Shown here: positions 8,606 through 62,329 of the stretch, piece after piece | Layout: every line of letters starts with the position of its first letter | How positions within the stretch are numbered: the first letter of the stretch is position 1 | Origin: Anaerolineae bacterium | GTDB taxonomy: Bacteria; Chloroflexota; Anaerolineae; Promineifilales; Promineifilaceae | Reading direction: 5' to 3' | DNA: 64,000 bases | NCBI GenBank assembly: GCA_007123775.1 | Contig: SLGK01000118.1 | Coordinates: 1-64,000 of the forward strand | Notes under the pieces: generated by a model | Database searches by the model: none | Told to the model about the DNA's origin: nothing | The model's input: only the letters and a program-made list of their open reading frames with translations | Position numbers and translations under genes: made by a program

Positions 8606-10267
8606 ATGAAACGATTATTGGCACTGCTAACAATCATGACAGTCCTGGCAACCTTGTTGGGGACCGCAACGCTGAGTCAGCAACCCGCTTCTATAAGCCA
8701 AACCCTGATTGTGCAAGCGAAAGATGTTCAGACGGCAGCAACGGCCGTTGCCGAACTCGGCGGCACTATCAATAGAGAACTGGCCATAATTAACGCCGTC
8801 ACGGCCGTATTAACAGCCGAACAGGTTGCTGCCCTGGAACAGGATAGTCGCATCATCGCGCTTTATGGCAATGGTCAGGCCGAAGTTGCCCAGGCCAAAC
8901 CCGGCCCTACCGGCGCCAATGCTAACTTTCCCCAGGTCGTTGGTGCCGATCAGGTTTGGGACGCGGGCATTGCCGGTGACGGCATTACTGTTGCCGTTGT
9001 TGATACCGGCATTGCTACCTTTGGTTGGAACGCCCAGCGCGTTATCGCTCGCTATGATGCTCTGGAAAACGGCTCCAACAAGCACGATCCGCACGGCCAC
9101 GGCAGCATGATGGCCAGTATTATTGCCAACACCACTCAAGACACCAATGGTCCAATTGGCCTCGCGCCCGCAGTTAATCTGGTTGATGTACGTACTCTGG
9201 ACGAAGACGGCAGGGGCACGTATGCTGAAATACTTGACGGTCTGAACTGGGTGCTGGCCCACAAAGACATATACAACATCCGCGTAGTCAACCTGTCACT
9301 GGTGGGTGGTGTGGATGGTCCTTACTGGTCCAACCCCCTGAATCAGGCTGTGGAGATGCTGTGGGATGCTGGTATCGTTGTCGTCGCGGCCGCGGGTAAT
9401 GCCGGACCTGATCCCCTGACCATAGCCAGCCCTGGCAACAATCCATTTGTGATTACCGTTGGCGCGTTTACCGATAACTACACCCCTGATGATGAAAGTG
9501 ACGATTACGTAACCCCCTTCAGCGGTGCTGGCCCCACGGAAACGGGGTTTGTCAAGCCCGACGTGATTGCCCCCGGTGCCCGCATGTTGGTTCAGGTACG
9601 CCCTGATACCACCTGGGCTAAGGCCAATAGAGACGCCCGCGTGCGCGGCATGTTCTACCAGATTGCCGGCACCTCGGCTTCAACCGCAGTCGCCAGCGGT
9701 GTAGCAGCCCTTATGATAGACGCTAACCCGGAGATGACGCCCAATCAGGTAAAATATGGGATGATGGATGCCGCCCGCCCGGCAGTGGACGCCGATGGCA
9801 GCCTGACCTGGAGCATCTTCCAGCAGGGAGCTGGTCGCCTCTGGGCACCTGATGCCGTATTGTACCCGGCGGCCGGCGAAGCCAACGCCGGTATGATTCC
9901 GGGTGAGCCTTACGTTGGCCCTACTGTCTTCCAGGATGGCCAGTTCGTTCTGGTCGATGAAAACGGTAACGCTATTATCGACCTGACCGGTTATATTTGG
10001 ACAGGTGGCTATATCTGGACAGGCGGTTACATCTGGACGGGTGGCTACATTTGGACGGGCGGCTACATTTGGACAGGTGGCTATATCTGGACAGGTACCA
10101 CCGACTGGCAACCACTGACCGAGGACGATCTCTGGCAGAGCGGTTACAGTTGGACAGAAGATGCCGGCTGGCCAGGTGGCTACATTTGGACGGGTGGCTA
10201 TATCTGGACAGGTGGTTATATCTGGACAGGTGGCTATATTTGGACAGGTTTGACTACCTCCGATTAA
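8606..10267 (+). CDS. S8 family serine peptidase (subtilase) with YIWTGG repeat tail
   Basis: VAVVDTGIA, HGHGSMMASI, GTSASTAVASG catalytic motifs; signal peptide; inhibitor-like propeptide. Confidence 0.93.
   Translation: MKRLLALLTIMTVLATLLGTATLSQQPASISQTLIVQAKDVQTAATAVAELGGTINRELAIINAVTAVLTAEQVAALEQDSRIIALYGNGQAEVAQAKPGPTGANANFPQVVGADQVWDAGIAGDGITVAVVDTGIATFGWNAQRVIARYDALENGSNKHDPHGHGSMMASIIANTTQDTNGPIGLAPAVNLVDVRTLDEDGRGTYAEILDGLNWVLAHKDIYNIRVVNLSLVGGVDGPYWSNPLNQAVEMLWDAGIVVVAAAGNAGPDPLTIASPGNNPFVITVGAFTDNYTPDDESDDYVTPFSGAGPTETGFVKPDVIAPGARMLVQVRPDTTWAKANRDARVRGMFYQIAGTSASTAVASGVAALMIDANPEMTPNQVKYGMMDAARPAVDADGSLTWSIFQQGAGRLWAPDAVLYPAAGEANAGMIPGEPYVGPTVFQDGQFVLVDENGNAIIDLTGYIWTGGYIWTGGYIWTGGYIWTGGYIWTGGYIWTGTTDWQPLTEDDLWQSGYSWTEDAGWPGGYIWTGGYIWTGGYIWTGGYIWTGLTTSD
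9992..10249 (+). repeat. 18-bp tandem repeats encoding YIWTGG (6 copies + divergent spacer + 4 copies)
   Basis: tatatttggacaggtggc units at 9992-10096 and 10181-10249. Confidence 0.95.
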
Positions 10268-23854: not shown

Positions 23855-24298
23855 ATGAAGGGTGAAGTAGCAATTACGAATTACGGATTACGAATTACGA
23901 GTTTTCACTTCCGTTACTTATTGGTCAAGATTGTTCTATTGATGCTTGGTATCGTGTTTTTGGTGGCTTGCGGCACAACCGAGGCGGTACCAACACCAGC
24001 TAGAGACTTAACCGAGCAAGAGTTGATGGGGCAGCAGGTCTTTACTCGTGAATGTGCTGCCTGTCATAGCCTTAGTACTGAAACTACCATTGTCGGTCCT
24101 CCACTGGCCGGCATTGCCACTACCGCTGCCACCCGTGTCCTCGATATGGATGCCAAAACCTATATTCTGACCTCAATTATGCGCCCCGGTGACTACATTG
24201 TTGAGGGCTACGGCAACACCATGCCCGACAATTTCGGCCGGCGTCTGACGGGTGAGCAGATTGATGCGGTGGTGGCTTATTTGCTGACGCTTGAGTAA
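23855..24298 (+). CDS. c-type cytochrome lipoprotein
   Basis: CAACH haem motif, LVAC lipobox; real start may be TTG at 23921 because the first codons are heptamer repeat. Confidence 0.85.
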   Translation: MKGEVAITNYGLRITSFHFRYLLVKIVLLMLGIVFLVACGTTEAVPTPARDLTEQELMGQQVFTRECAACHSLSTETTIVGPPLAGIATTAATRVLDMDAKTYILTSIMRPGDYIVEGYGNTMPDNFGRRLTGEQIDAVVAYLLTLE

Positions 24299-33724: not shown

Positions 33725-33920
33725 AGCTTCAGAAGTCTCCGGAAGAACTAAACGGTTGCTAATTGACTGTGATACTGGCATCTGGCAAAAACTGCGCCAG
33801 TGTCCAGTTATTCAGTTTGACGTAGGCGGCCATTTTATGCCACAATAGCCATATTATCCAGCCATAAAACAGAAGGCAACACGCGCTGGTGTGGCAACAG
33901 TAAACGAATGAAACTCTGAA

Positions 33921-34115
33921 GCGCAAACATCCCTGTTTGCGCGGTCAAGCAGAGATGCTTGACCTACATTCATAATGGAACCCTGTAGCGCAAACATCCC
34001 TGTTTGCGCGGTCAAGCAGGGATGCTTGACCTACATTCACAATGGAACACTGTAGTGCAAACATCCCTGTTTGCGCGGTCAAGCAGAGATGCTTGACCTA
34101 CATTCACAATGGAGG
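33921..34115 (+). repeat. three tandem 67-bp units, each with two 9-bp-stem hairpins
   Basis: Units begin at 33921, 33988, 34055; GCGCAAACA-TCCC-TGTTTGCGC then GGTCAAGCA-GAGA/GGGA-TGCTTGACC. Confidence 0.96.
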
Positions 34116-34121
34116 CTCAAA

Positions 34122-34388
34122 ATGGATACCCTTATTTTACGTAACAACGCCCGCGAAAGCGGCGGCGGCCATCAGTACACAATTGAAGTGCTGGGCGGCG
34201 ACAGTAAGAGCAAAGATGCCCTGCAAGAAGCGGTTCGCGGTCTGACCCATCACCCAGCCCGCGCCCCACGCCGCTCGATCATCGACATGTTGACCCTTAT
34301 CCAAAGTCAACGGCTGCAAATTAAGCATGTGGAGCGCACCACCGGCGAGGATAATACGGAAACCTGGCTGTTCGTTTTACAAGCATAG
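34122..34388 (+). CDS. small uncharacterised protein (88 aa)
   Basis: ATG at 34122 preceded by ggagg; MDTLILRNNARESGGGHQYTIEVLGGDSKSK... Confidence 0.7.
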   Translation: MDTLILRNNARESGGGHQYTIEVLGGDSKSKDALQEAVRGLTHHPARAPRRSIIDMLTLIQSQRLQIKHVERTTGEDNTETWLFVLQA

Positions 34389-34417: not shown

Positions 34418-34482
34418 TTCCAAGTCATCACGCTTCACGTTTCACGTTTTTACGTTTTACGCTTTTACGTTTTACGTACCCC
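34418..34482 (+). repeat. heptamer-type (TTTACGT/TTCACGT) tract
   Basis: cacgcttcacgtttcacgtttttacgttttacgcttttacgttttacgtacc. Confidence 0.65.
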
Positions 34483-38225: not shown

Positions 38226-38555
38226 TCACAAATCAAGTTGTACTTTAACAGCGGCTTCAATGTGCTTTAAGGTTTCACGAGATACCTGTCCGGCCTTGGT
38301 TAGCAAGCGTAGTTTGCTAACCGTGGTTAACTGGTCAGCCATAGCTTTGCTTTCCTGACCTTGAAAGAATACCAACGCTTCGCTTGGGTATATTCGCTCT
38401 ACATTGGATGTAAGCGGTACAACCTGAACGCGATTGAGATGCTTATTGGAAGCGTCATTGCTGACAATGACAGCGGGACGGCGTTTGCGAATTTCACCGC
38501 CTACAGACGGATCAAAATTAACCCACCAAACCTCACCACGCTTCACCGGCCACAT
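38226..38555 (-). CDS. PemK/MazF family toxin
   Basis: [31 protein letters not shown]. Confidence 0.9.
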
Positions 38556-38805
38556 CTCCTATAGTCGCTTCCACCCATGCTAAGGCTTCGGCTTCCCGTG
38601 TTTCGTCTTGGGCCATTTCAGCATACGCTAATTCTAAATTTTGCTGCATGACGTAAGACCGCACCAGTTCTTCAACAAATTTGCTGATTCGCTGCAGGTC
38701 AGCCTCATGCTCTGACTGAAGCTGTGGCCCATTCTTAGGATCAACCATTGTTTGTAATCCCTGGTACACCTCGGCATCAATTGTAATCGTCAACTCTTTT
38801 TGCAT
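38533..38805 (-). CDS. antitoxin partner of the PemK/MazF toxin
   Basis: 90-aa ORF overlapping the toxin start; [21 protein letters not shown] (RHH-like beta strand). Confidence 0.75.
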
Positions 38806-38958: not shown

Positions 38959-39915
38959 ATGAAAAAAGGTAGAGGGCAGAAGGCAGAAGGCAGAAGGCAG
39001 ACAACGGCCGTTTGGTATCTGGTGGGCGGGTTGTTTTTGCTGCTGGGCGGCTGGCTAATGGGGTTGGGGGAGATACGGCCGTTACTCGCCCAAGAACCGG
39101 AATTTGTAACAGCGACCCCGGATGCCGAGGGCACAATCTACTACGAGGTGCAGCCCAACGACAACCTGTCGATCATCGCTGTCCGTCATGGCTTGACTTT
39201 GCAAGAACTGCTGGACTTCAACAACATGAGCCGGGACGCTTTGCTCCGGCCAGGCGACCGGCTGATTGTGGGTTTTGGCGAGCCGCCAGCCACGCCCACC
39301 GTGCCTGTGCCGCCCACACCCACGCTGGCCCCGCCGACGCCCACCTTTACCCCGGCCCCGCCGCCGACGGCCATCTGTCTGCTGGCCTTTGTGGACCTGA
39401 ACGCCAACGGCCGTTTCGATCCCGGCGACCCCTTGCAAGAGGCGGTCGCTTTTACCATTTTTGACCAAACGGCCGTTGTGGCCAACTATATCACCGACGG
39501 CTTTTCCGAACCCCATTGTATTGAGGGTCTGCCCCCCGGTGACTACAACGTCACCCGCTCGCTGAGCAGCGGCTTCCAGGCCACGACGCCGGGCGATATG
39601 GCCATCACCCTGGGCTGGGGAGATCGGGTGGACCTGGCTTTTGGCGCGGTCAGCCAGGAGAGTGTGGCGGCTACCGAAGCGGCCATGATGCCCGAACTGG
39701 CAGAAACGCCCACACCAGCGGCGGCGGAATTGGTTGAGGCTGAAACAGAAACGGCCGTTTCCCCACAAACCAATCGCTGGTGGGAAAACGGCCGTGTGCC
39801 CTGGGTCTGGTGGCTGGCGGCCTGCGGCTTCATGCTGCTGGCCGGTCTGCTGCCGGTTGGCCTGATAGCCTACTTGTATGTGACCCGGCGCAGTAATACC
39901 CCCTTAAGTGAATAG
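38959..39915 (+). CDS. LysM + SdrD_B-like domain surface protein, C-terminal TM anchor
   Basis: YEVQPNDNLSIIAVRHGLTLQELLDFNNM LysM; DLNANGRFDPGDPLQ; terminal TM + RRS. Confidence 0.82.
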   Translation: MKKGRGQKAEGRRQTTAVWYLVGGLFLLLGGWLMGLGEIRPLLAQEPEFVTATPDAEGTIYYEVQPNDNLSIIAVRHGLTLQELLDFNNMSRDALLRPGDRLIVGFGEPPATPTVPVPPTPTLAPPTPTFTPAPPPTAICLLAFVDLNANGRFDPGDPLQEAVAFTIFDQTAVVANYITDGFSEPHCIEGLPPGDYNVTRSLSSGFQATTPGDMAITLGWGDRVDLAFGAVSQESVAATEAAMMPELAETPTPAAAELVEAETETAVSPQTNRWWENGRVPWVWWLAACGFMLLAGLLPVGLIAYLYVTRRSNTPLSE

Positions 39916-50161: not shown

Positions 50162-53100
50162 TTACTGGTCGAGAAGTACGGTCGCATTGGGGAATGGCCT
50201 GCCGGTGGCGTCGTAAGCAGGCAAGCGTGCAAATGTCCCGTTGTCCACCCAATAAAAACCCACCCCAATCTCGTAGGTTTCATCCGCCGCCGGCAGCGGC
50301 AGCCAGACCGGATCGGCAATCAATTCACCTGCCTGCCATTGGCCGGTGGGGTACGTGCCCCGCTGCGGCATGGCGTCATCCTGGCTCAGCGGCGGGCCGG
50401 CTTCCGGCCCCAGCAGATGGGCAAAGCGGGTATAATCCTGCGCCCCGCCCCGCAGCGCCTCCCAGTAAAACGTCAGCGCCAGACCATCCCCTTCGATCTC
50501 AAGCCGATAGCCACGCAGCGCCAGCAGCGGCCCGGATTCGTCGTGGTACACGGCCGTTGTCTCTACCAAATCCGGCGGCAAGTCGGCCAACTGGGGTTGT
50601 GTGGGTACAAACTGCCAGCCCGCCGCGCCGGTGGCCAACTGCCCCAGGCGGCGTATGGCCACCGTCTGCCCGCCGGTCACTTCATAGAGCCAGGCCATCA
50701 GGAAAAATGAGCCGTCATCACCCGCCGGCTCCGGTAGGGGGATGGCTACCTGATCGTCAACCCACTGCTGCGGCGGCCACAGGCTGCTGGGCCGAAAGCC
50801 GTGTCCCGGCTGGAGGTCGTACTGCTGCCGCAGTTGGCCCTGTTCATCCAGCAGGCGCAGCGACAGGTTGTAGTTGGGACCAATCGGCCGGGGCGTGGCG
50901 TACCGCAGGTGGAGCGTCAGCGCGTCGGGGCCAATCTGGGCAGCTTCGGCCAGGACGTCCAGCCGGGGCGGGGCGGGATCGGGTACAGTAGGGTTGAGGC
51001 GCAACGGCCGTAAATAGAGACCGCCGCGCCGCTGGGCTGAGCCGGGTGTGAGGGCGACGCCGTCACCTACCTGCACATAGGGCACGTAGAGGCCGGTCGG
51101 GGATGTGATGGGCAGGTCGAACTGAAAATCGGACCAGGCTGTGCCGGGCTGGTCCCATCTGATCTGTTGGGAAAGCAGCAGCGGCACCGTGACGCCGCCG
51201 GGCTGGGGGCGCGGGTGGGCCGGCGTAGCCAGGCCAACCGTAATGGGCGTACCGGCTGCGGCCTTCAGGTTCAGACGAATGGTTAGCCGTTGCCCGACAG
51301 TCAACGCATCCTGGCTGTAGTCGTAGCCGTGCAGGATGGCCCCGTTGCTAAAGGCAATGCCCGCCGGGCTGTGGTGCAGGTAGCCCAGTTGGGCAAAATC
51401 CCAGCTTTGCGTGCCGGAGGCCAGCGGTTGGGGCGAACGGCCGTGTAGCCCGGCGCTGACCAGCAGTAACACCAGCGTAGCGGCCAGTAACGGCCGTCGC
51501 TGGCGGCGCAGCCACGCCCAGGGATGCAGCCACCAGAGCCAGAGCAGCAGCGACAGCAACGAAACCAATTCGGCCACCCGGCGTACTGTCGTCCGCTCTA
51601 GTTGCAGCGTCAGATCGTGGCTGCCTGCTGGCAGATCAAGCATAATGAGGCCGGTTCCGGGAGACGGCCGTATCTCAATTGGTTCCCCATTTAGCCGCGC
51701 CGTCCAGCCGGGCCAGTGGAGTGTGGGCAGCACCAGCGTGGCCGGACTGTCTGCCACGAACTGCCACTGCTGCCGCGTCGTTTGCCCGGCGGCCAGTTTC
51801 GCCTGGGGGACGTCGCCGGTCAAAATCTGGGGGCGATGGCGTTCGCCCGTCTCCAGCCAACCGCTAGTAAAGGGGCGGGGCTGGACGGTGTGGGGCAGAT
51901 ATTCGGCGCTGACGGTGGTGCCAATGTTGCCGGTAAACCATTCATATTGGGCCAGCGATTCGGCCGTGACGTCGGCATCGGTCAGGGCAAGATGGTCGGT
52001 TTGCAGTCCGCCCAGGCCGCTGATAGCCATCAGCAGGCAAAGGGCGGGAACCAGCCAGCGCCGCCAGGGGAGCAGCGCCAGCGCCCCCGTTGCCAGGGCC
52101 GTGAAGATCGCCTGCACCGACAAAAAGCGCCAGGGAAATTGGGTGAAGGAGAGCAGCGGTAAATGGTCCCAAAGCAGCCGGGAGAGCGGCGTCAGCATGA
52201 AGGTGGCTACGAATAGACCGATAACCAGGAAGACGATACGTGCGCCTAGACCTGACAGGTCTTCAAGACCTGTCAGGTCTGGTCTCCATTCTACGAAGCC
52301 CAACGCCGCCAATCCCAACAGGGCCAATACCGCCTGAACCAGCCCCATGCGAAAGGCGTTGCCGCCGTCAACCGTATAATCAAACAACAAGCTGCTCTGG
52401 ACCAGATCGCCGCTCAAAAAATGGTTGCTGTAGTGGAAATAGCCCTCCGTCACCGGACCCAGTTGGGCCAGCGATTGCTCCGCCAACGCGGGCACAAAAA
52501 ACCAGGCGGCCAGCCCCAACGCCAGCAGTAAAGAAATCGTGATGCGTGATGCGTAATGCGTAATACGTAATGCGTAATGCGTGATGCGTAATGCGTGATG
52601 CGTCATGCCGAACAGCAAAATGGCTAACAGCAGGAAAGGCGAAAAAATAAGTGCGGAGATGTTGTGGCTCAAAATGAGCGCCGCATATAGCAGCGCTAAT
52701 TGACCATTGACCATTGACCGTTGACCATTGACCATTCTCAGGATGGCCAGGATTAGCCAGGGGTATAAGGCCATGGCCCAGAATTCGGCCAGGGAGTCGC
52801 CGCGCACGTAGACGTTGACCATGTGGAAGGGGGCGAAGGTGTAGGCAACGGCCGTTAACAGGCCGGCCCATTCGTGGCGTAGTGGGTAGTGGGTAGTGCG
52901 TAAGGTGTTGTTTTCAGGTAGAGACCAGAAGGTGCGGCCGAGTTGGTAAGCGCCCCAGGCGGCAACGAGGAAGCCGCTGAGCTGGGCCAGGTGGATGGCG
53001 CGGATGAAGCCGAAGCCGAGGAAATAGAAAACGGCCGTGATGTACAGCGACAGCGGCGCGTAATAGTTGTAAAAGGGGTAGCCATAGCCGTAGTTGGCAT

Positions 53101-61354: not shown

Positions 61355-61600
61355 GAAGTATGAAGTATGAATTATGAAGTATGCATTACGGGCAGGGTTC
61401 ACTGCTCTCTGGCAGCCAACTTTACAAATTTTGACGGAGGACCGAAGACGAAGAGCTTGCACTGAGCTTGTCGAAGTGACGGAATTTCTATCGGCCTATC
61501 GGCCCATCGCTTTTTCTGGCCATCGCTTTTCCTGGCCATCGCTTTTCCTGGCCATCGCTTTTCCTGGCCATTGGTCTTTCGTCCTCCGTCCTCGGTCAGT
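61351..61600. repeat. composite intergenic repeat: GAAGTAT heptamers, GACGGAG arms, CACTGAGCTTGTCGAAGTG element, 16-bp GGCCATCGCTTTTCCT tandem copies
   Basis: Direct reading of the sequence. Confidence 0.8.
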
Positions 61601-62042: not shown

Positions 62043-62329
62043 AGCTTTATTCCTCAACTCACAACTCACAATTCGTAGTTCGTAATTCGTAATACGTAAT
62101 TCAAGTATACTCAGGTTACGTATGGCAGGCTAAAACGGCCGTTTGACTCATCCATCACTCACAAAAACGGGGAAAACAGTGGCATTTGGGGTATTTTTGA
62201 GGTCATAATGGCGGCAATTGTGCAGCCATCAAGCCATTTGGTATAATTTAGCGATTTTAGCTTGAACGAGCAGCGGGTACGGCAAGACGAAGCTGGCAAA
62301 CCACTGCAAAGCAAATAAGGGACAATCTG

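Follow-up and report, generated by a model that had tools for sequence, protein, structure and literature searches.

The array and its leader

A tandem array of paired hairpins lies in the leader of a small gene on contig SLGK01000118.1 of an Anaerolineae bacterium and runs directly into the ribosome binding site, which raises the question of what this array is and how it came to occupy that position. The window (the whole 64,000-nucleotide stretch that was analysed) was scanned with Tandem Repeats Finder, which returned positions 33907-34113 with a period of 67, 3.1 copies, 94% matches and a score of 365. The three exact 67-bp units originally predicted, starting at 33921, 33988 and 34055 and spanning 33921-34098, were confirmed in the sequence, and the letters likewise gave two hairpins per unit, hairpin A (GCGCAAACA-TCCC-TGTTTGCGC) and hairpin B (GGTCAAGCA-GRGA-TGCTTGACC), with stems of 9 bp. 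The GAGA/GGGA loop variation and the GTGC wobble of copy 3 are both present.

All features of the leader were read on the forward strand. A promoter-like site, TTGACG-N18-CACAAT, was found at 33817..33846 by consensus scan (9/12, with TG before the -10; a weak match by itself, as shuffles expect 0.9); it lies upstream of the insertion and is probably the native promoter of the downstream gene. It is followed by AGAAGG at 33871..33876, the presumed ancestral Shine-Dalgarno (SD) motif as judged by alignment with the leader of a relative (locus L042), which the cassette now parts from the gene, and by a degenerate copy of a module here called M at 33877..33917 (consensus RCAACATGCGCC-NNN-GGCGCACCARCAAACGAATGAAAATCT, from an alignment with M modules at four further places in the genome). 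The sequence taken in the original prediction for a partial upstream tail of the array exists, and is the 3' end of this longer degenerate 5' module, which starts at about 33877. The REP pairs, identified below, occupy 33918..33967 (unit 1; hairpin A 33921-33942, hairpin B 33943-33964, with the head GAAG, a degenerate GTAG), 33985..34034 (unit 2; 33988-34009 and 34010-34031) and 34052..34101 (unit 3; 34055-34076, which holds the wobble, and 34077-34098). The joints ATTCAYAATGGAACMCT at 33968-33984 and 34035-34051 enclose unit 2 (33968..34051 in all), and at the place where TGGAGG stands in the last unit each retains TGGAA as a remnant. The cassette right end, ATTCACAAT at 34102..34110 (mostly ATTTTCAC in other copies), leads into GGAGG at 34111..34115, the new SD motif under the rule found across clusters (see below), so that the last unit does run into the ribosome binding site ahead of the ATG at 34122. 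The 88-aa ORF (34122..34388) gave no match to Pfam or NCBIfam profiles; its relatives occur in four further genomes of this family.

The joints (ATTCAYAATGGA) are similar to one another and to the final right end, and other copies in the genome differ there (mostly ATTTTCACAGGAG). Because this private joint is common to the units, the most likely origin of the array is that one inserted unit, the terminal one, was duplicated locally in tandem, with an SD remnant left in each joint.

Identity, copies and structure of the REP pair

On the opposite strand hairpin B reads TGTAG-GTCAAGCA-TCYC-TGCTTGACC, so that A and B are the same palindrome type, inverted; both have the core CATCYCTG and a GTAG head, and the heads face outward. 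On its sequence the unit is therefore classed as two GTAG-type REP palindromes placed head to head (REPIN/BIME). The genome, a 5.59-Mb assembly of 344 contigs (96% complete, 5% estimated contamination), was searched at the DNA level, and copies of the unit were found at 45 places; the pattern GTAG-N3-8-CATCYCTG had 91 matches as against 5 for the reversed control. About 38 REP-pair clusters, located in leaders, were defined. The original prediction had allowed for a duplication with no other copies, and these counts dispose of that outcome; its suggestion of a REP/BIME-like element was borne out by the GTAG-headed inverted pairs in tens of copies and by a RAYT gene in the same genome. Tandem arrangement is confined to a few loci; most clusters are a single A-B pair.

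Many related pairs with different stems were found in a genome of another genus of the same family (G032). The exact A-hairpin pattern had 0 matches over 85,462 species genomes, a set from which the own genome was possibly left out. As a separate observation, a 31-bp direct array of single GTAG REPs occurs at L062 1-183 (contig C69; about 4 units) and at L078 2728-3019 (C216; about 8 units); both stretches lie at contig ends and are probably one locus split by the assembler.

The predicted RNA fold of 33841-34140 has a free energy of -113 kcal/mol (shuffles -74.5 +/- 4.7; z = -8.1), and the single-stranded DNA fold also lies beyond shuffles (z = -9.3). Covariation, proposed earlier as a check, was assessed on a set of 20 different sequences, drawn from this genome, from G032 and from the RAYT locus. 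Standard pairs made up 97.5% of pair cells, and both helices covary over the two genera: 8 of 18 pairs have two-sided changes, most of which represent a single split between this genome and G032, the covariation score was reached by no shuffle, and slid controls collapse. Such a conserved hairpin fits processing of single-stranded DNA as much as a function in RNA.

Position relative to Shine-Dalgarno motifs and genes

Clusters were oriented from A to B, and an SD-like motif was sought 5-12 nt beyond the cluster end. It was present beyond the right end in 34/38 clusters and beyond the left end in 1/39 (Fisher p = 3e-16), with shuffles giving about 5/38; its distance from the REP pair is mostly exactly 8 nt, and it is absent from 4/38 clusters. 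A gene start follows the right end in 27/38 cases as against 8/39 at the left end. The merger with a ribosome binding site, noted at first for one locus, thus recurs as a genome-wide rule (34/38) and points to the target site of the element.

The genes concerned have little in common. Ten proteins encoded downstream of REP-pair copies belong to unrelated Pfam families, and copies of a second cassette type described below precede genes whose products were read as HisS, ArgF and further proteins with no relation to one another. Since the downstream proteins are unrelated, the cassettes, judged in this way, are not a regulon leader. The regulatory array and the sRNA put forward in the original prediction find no support, given functionally unrelated downstream genes and orthologue leaders that lack the element. 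The Rfam search gave 0 matches above gathering score over the whole window, and no terminator-like site was found at the locus in a scan.

Cassette organisation

Many REP-pair copies sit in a larger cassette of the form [A]GGAG-(82 or ~104 bp)-AGGAG-gene, in which the cargo varies behind a common 5' module. This module, M, is AGGAG-RCAACATGCGCC-NN(N)-GGCGCACCARCAAACGAATGAAAA, its left part being common to many copies; in most M copies a stretch rich in A/T and a motif resembling AGGAG come after it, and M cassettes mostly measure 102-105 bp between the flanking motifs. At least three cargos occur behind M here, namely the GTAG pair, a GGAG-headed pair (GGAGCGC...GCCAGCAGGGATGCTGGCGCTCC) and a GTAACGCAGG...GGTTAC hairpin pair, the last of which is a non-REP cargo sharing the module. 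M precedes other hairpin pairs in G032 as well, so that interchangeable cargos are found in two genera, and the exact module pattern found in G032 also matches two records named 'Anaerolinea sp. isolate CH6'. Some copies are without module M or without a clear left AGGAG, and one cassette has TGGAG on its left side as against AGGAG on the right. Neither inverted repeats at the cassette ends nor, in the fetched loci, an autonomous cassette with an internal transposase were seen. A short uORF within the cassette (AGGAG-N5-ATG...TGA) was considered and rejected, as frame and ATG are not kept and many copies have ACG.

A second cassette type, TTCCCCATGGGCGCAGCGCACCACGATAAATGAAAAT...CTATTTTCGA (type 2), has no REP pair and is present in 18 copies, 16 of them identical across a 28-nt core. 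GGAG forms the left border and AGGAG the right border in 18/18 copies, 17/18 have one length, and a gene start lies 3-10 nt past the right motif in 15/18. The near-identity of the copies suggests that they spread in a recent burst. Cassettes stack in chains, the junctions lying at AGGAG. Among the type-2 loci inspected for chain order (L149, L151, L153, L154, L155, L157, L158, L160, L162 and L164), type 2 was always gene-proximal in chains that also hold a REP-bearing cassette, and no chain in the retrieved loci had the two the other way round. At L172 of G032 (about 1590-1710), the right end of a REP cassette is interrupted, at a point after the REP pair and before AGGAG, by a MITE-like insert whose ends are GGGTTCG...CGAACCC; the protein of the gene behind this split cassette reads like PdxS.

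Comparison with element-free sites

Leaders of orthologous genes were compared using assemblies that are themselves fragmented. The argF leaders of relatives have the promoter-like TGTGGTATACTT in common. Seventeen element-free argF leaders, taken from other genera, were available, of which 13 carry GGAG just before the start (one with a second GGAG far upstream) and 4 have no exact GGAG. The argF leader of G032 holds GGAG at position 52, then a cassette, then GGAG before the start, and GGAG lies at 45-60 in four relatives with short argF leaders. A different cassette, again between two GGAGs, occupies this leader in G017, which is of the same genus as G032, and the genome of the window has an M cassette and a type-2 cassette there. 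The left [A]GGAG of the cassettes corresponds to the SD position in element-free relatives.

At the 88-aa gene, the alignment between the window and the L042 leader, likewise from another genus, extends to 33876 and stops at AAGG, the point at which the cassette begins in the window; in L042 the start codon comes directly after. This alignment is modest taken alone, 11/2000 shuffles scoring as high. The leader at L043 gave no significant alignment with the window. Joining of cassette flanks as a query for an empty site in the genome yielded one match (54 bp, 85%, no gaps), which lends little weight because it falls within a GA-rich periodic repeat.

RAYT and other Y1 proteins

Linkage to a RAYT transposase had been suggested as a check. 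One RAYT gene was found in the genome (L010, contig C171), with GTAG REPs on both sides that overlap its start and have the same loop as the array and a different stem. Its protein scores 77.6 bits to NCBIfam REP_Tyr_transpos (cut-off 80) and 23.8 to Pfam Y1_Tnp (cut-off 23), and the RAYT of G032, 56% identical to it, is above the NCBIfam cut-off. A canonical IS200 TnpA was not found in this incomplete assembly. The only other Y1 match, at 35 bits (cut-off 55), is a domain of the 386-aa protein encoded at L009:694-1854, whose C-terminal region is Y1 transposase-like and whose N-terminus resembles a response-regulator receiver domain; it is possibly a domesticated HUH domain and no obvious transposase.

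The RAYT is the leading candidate for the enzyme that moves the cassettes, an assignment made tentatively and at somewhat below even odds. As type 2 lacks a REP pair, the RAYT alone may not explain type-2 cassettes, which points to a further recognition feature, or a different enzyme, in their movement. No pairing guide for AGGAG was identified.

Relation to known elements

IS200/IS605 elements (Y1/HUH) have no terminal inverted repeats, hairpins near their ends and a short fixed target motif. The cassettes resemble these elements and their non-autonomous derivatives in having hairpins near the ends, no terminal inverted repeats as far as seen and a fixed orientation beside a short motif that is the putative fixed target; they differ in that no TnpA occurs in any cassette seen and in that the target, AGGAG, is not among the known targets. 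Membership of this family is putative. Classical MITEs carry terminal inverted repeats and target duplications, whereas repeats of this kind are not seen in the cassettes, which are edged by SD motifs. Small bacterial MITEs and the pneumococcal BOX/RUP repeats (PMC3049150) are likewise short, non-coding, dispersed, intergenic and probably mobilised in trans.

GTAG REPs, REPINs and BIMEs with RAYTs, already reported from Chloroflexi, likewise form GTAG-headed head-to-head pairs in tens of dispersed copies with some tandem clusters and a REP-flanked RAYT (PMC3733652, PMC3116915, PMC6006769). Published GTAG REPs are found mainly near the 3' ends of genes (PMC3733652), which makes the SD-adjacent placement of the present elements, just before the SD motif and in one orientation, unusual. 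The pairs here also differ in sitting inside a larger cassette with a common 5' module and an SD motif at each edge, and their number (about 38 clusters) is below the hundreds known for REPs in some species. The SD target preference was not found described for such elements, and no description of elements inserting at Shine-Dalgarno sites was found in the open-licence literature.

Origin of the array and alternative explanations

Sequence comparison shows that the cassettes are dispersed, keep one orientation and a nearly fixed length and have AGGAG at their edges, and that element-free sites exist. With a probability of roughly 0.7, the array is carried as cargo by a small mobile cassette that is non-autonomous, inserts after an SD motif and supplies a new one at its right end. 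The cassette lies in sense orientation with [A]GGAG to its left and AGGAG to its right, and the right AGGAG is consequently the SD motif of the gene in most copies. Insertion would take place directly 3' of AGGAG, with the cassette carrying its own AGGAG at the right end; the gene would retain an SD motif at normal spacing, making the insertion nearly harmless, and the rebuilt AGGAG could receive the next cassette, giving head-to-tail chains. Transposition may be of the single-strand HUH/Y1 'peel-and-paste' type, a chemistry suggested by an orientation and a short target that are both fixed, by hairpins close to the ends and by the missing terminal inverted repeats. At the present locus one cassette would have entered after the SD motif at 33871-33876, and its REP pair would then have been duplicated in tandem, the three 67-bp units probably being the product of this later step.

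Ordinary REPINs moved by a RAYT without a special target, landing between genes with selection keeping those that spare the SD motif, would also produce REP pairs with GTAG heads and a REP-flanked RAYT, and copies without module M or a clear left AGGAG sit well with them. Such elements would not be expected to keep a near-constant SD distance (mostly exactly 8 nt), to have a left GGAG in 18/18 type-2 copies or to share a module with non-REP cargo, and the 3'-end preference of published GTAG REPs (PMC3733652) also speaks against them; this explanation is considered unlikely. Less probable again is a conserved RNA switch, attenuator or sRNA source that controls the downstream genes. Strong hairpins, covariation over two genera, SD adjacency and transcription inferred from the upstream promoter-like site would all suit such a leader, and against it stand the unrelated functions of the downstream genes, orthologous leaders without the element, wholly different cargos behind one module, and the lack of an Rfam match or terminator-like site in the searches above. 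Local effects on expression are possible, and regulation at single loci would be secondary. The private joint makes local duplication the probable source of the three units, yet a chance tandem repeat of no wider meaning is refuted by dispersal of the unit in about 38 clusters and by related pairs in another genus, and is given almost no credence.

Insertion after an SD motif that is then rebuilt may, with somewhat less assurance than for the array itself, define an 'SD-homing' cassette class in Anaerolineae, with a conserved left end and exchangeable cargo. To survive in a compact bacterial genome, a mobile element needs somewhere safe to land, and a ribosome binding site that is both targeted and restored would be a clean solution. 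An element of this kind would colonise translation start regions without breaking genes and would stack in chains, and many unrelated mRNAs would acquire a near-identical 5' leader that could later be recruited for regulation. SD targeting would account together for the one-way orientation, the chains and the placement in leaders, and it makes a testable prediction as to which sequence a REP-type enzyme, or an HUH enzyme related to it, would target; the spread of REPs is still poorly understood.

Other repeats and genes in the window

Tandem repeats of period 7 were recorded at 23872-23900, 34437-34477, 38966-39001, 52538-52608, 52699-52736, 61355-61388 and 62070-62102, with differing heptamer units (AATTACG, ACGTTTT, AAGGCAG, CGTAATG, ATTGACC, GAAGTAT and AATTCGT). 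They are mostly intergenic by appearance and seemingly over-represented in the window. An 18-bp/36-bp repeat at 9988-10249 reads as repeated GYIWTG motifs and probably belongs to a repetitive protein, and a near-perfect 16-bp tandem repeat, CCATCGCTTTTCCTGG, occupies 61504-61571 (4.2 copies, 98% matches). On the minus strand, 38226-38805 holds a PemK/MazF-like toxin gene and an overlapping upstream 90-aa ORF, likely a toxin-antitoxin pair.
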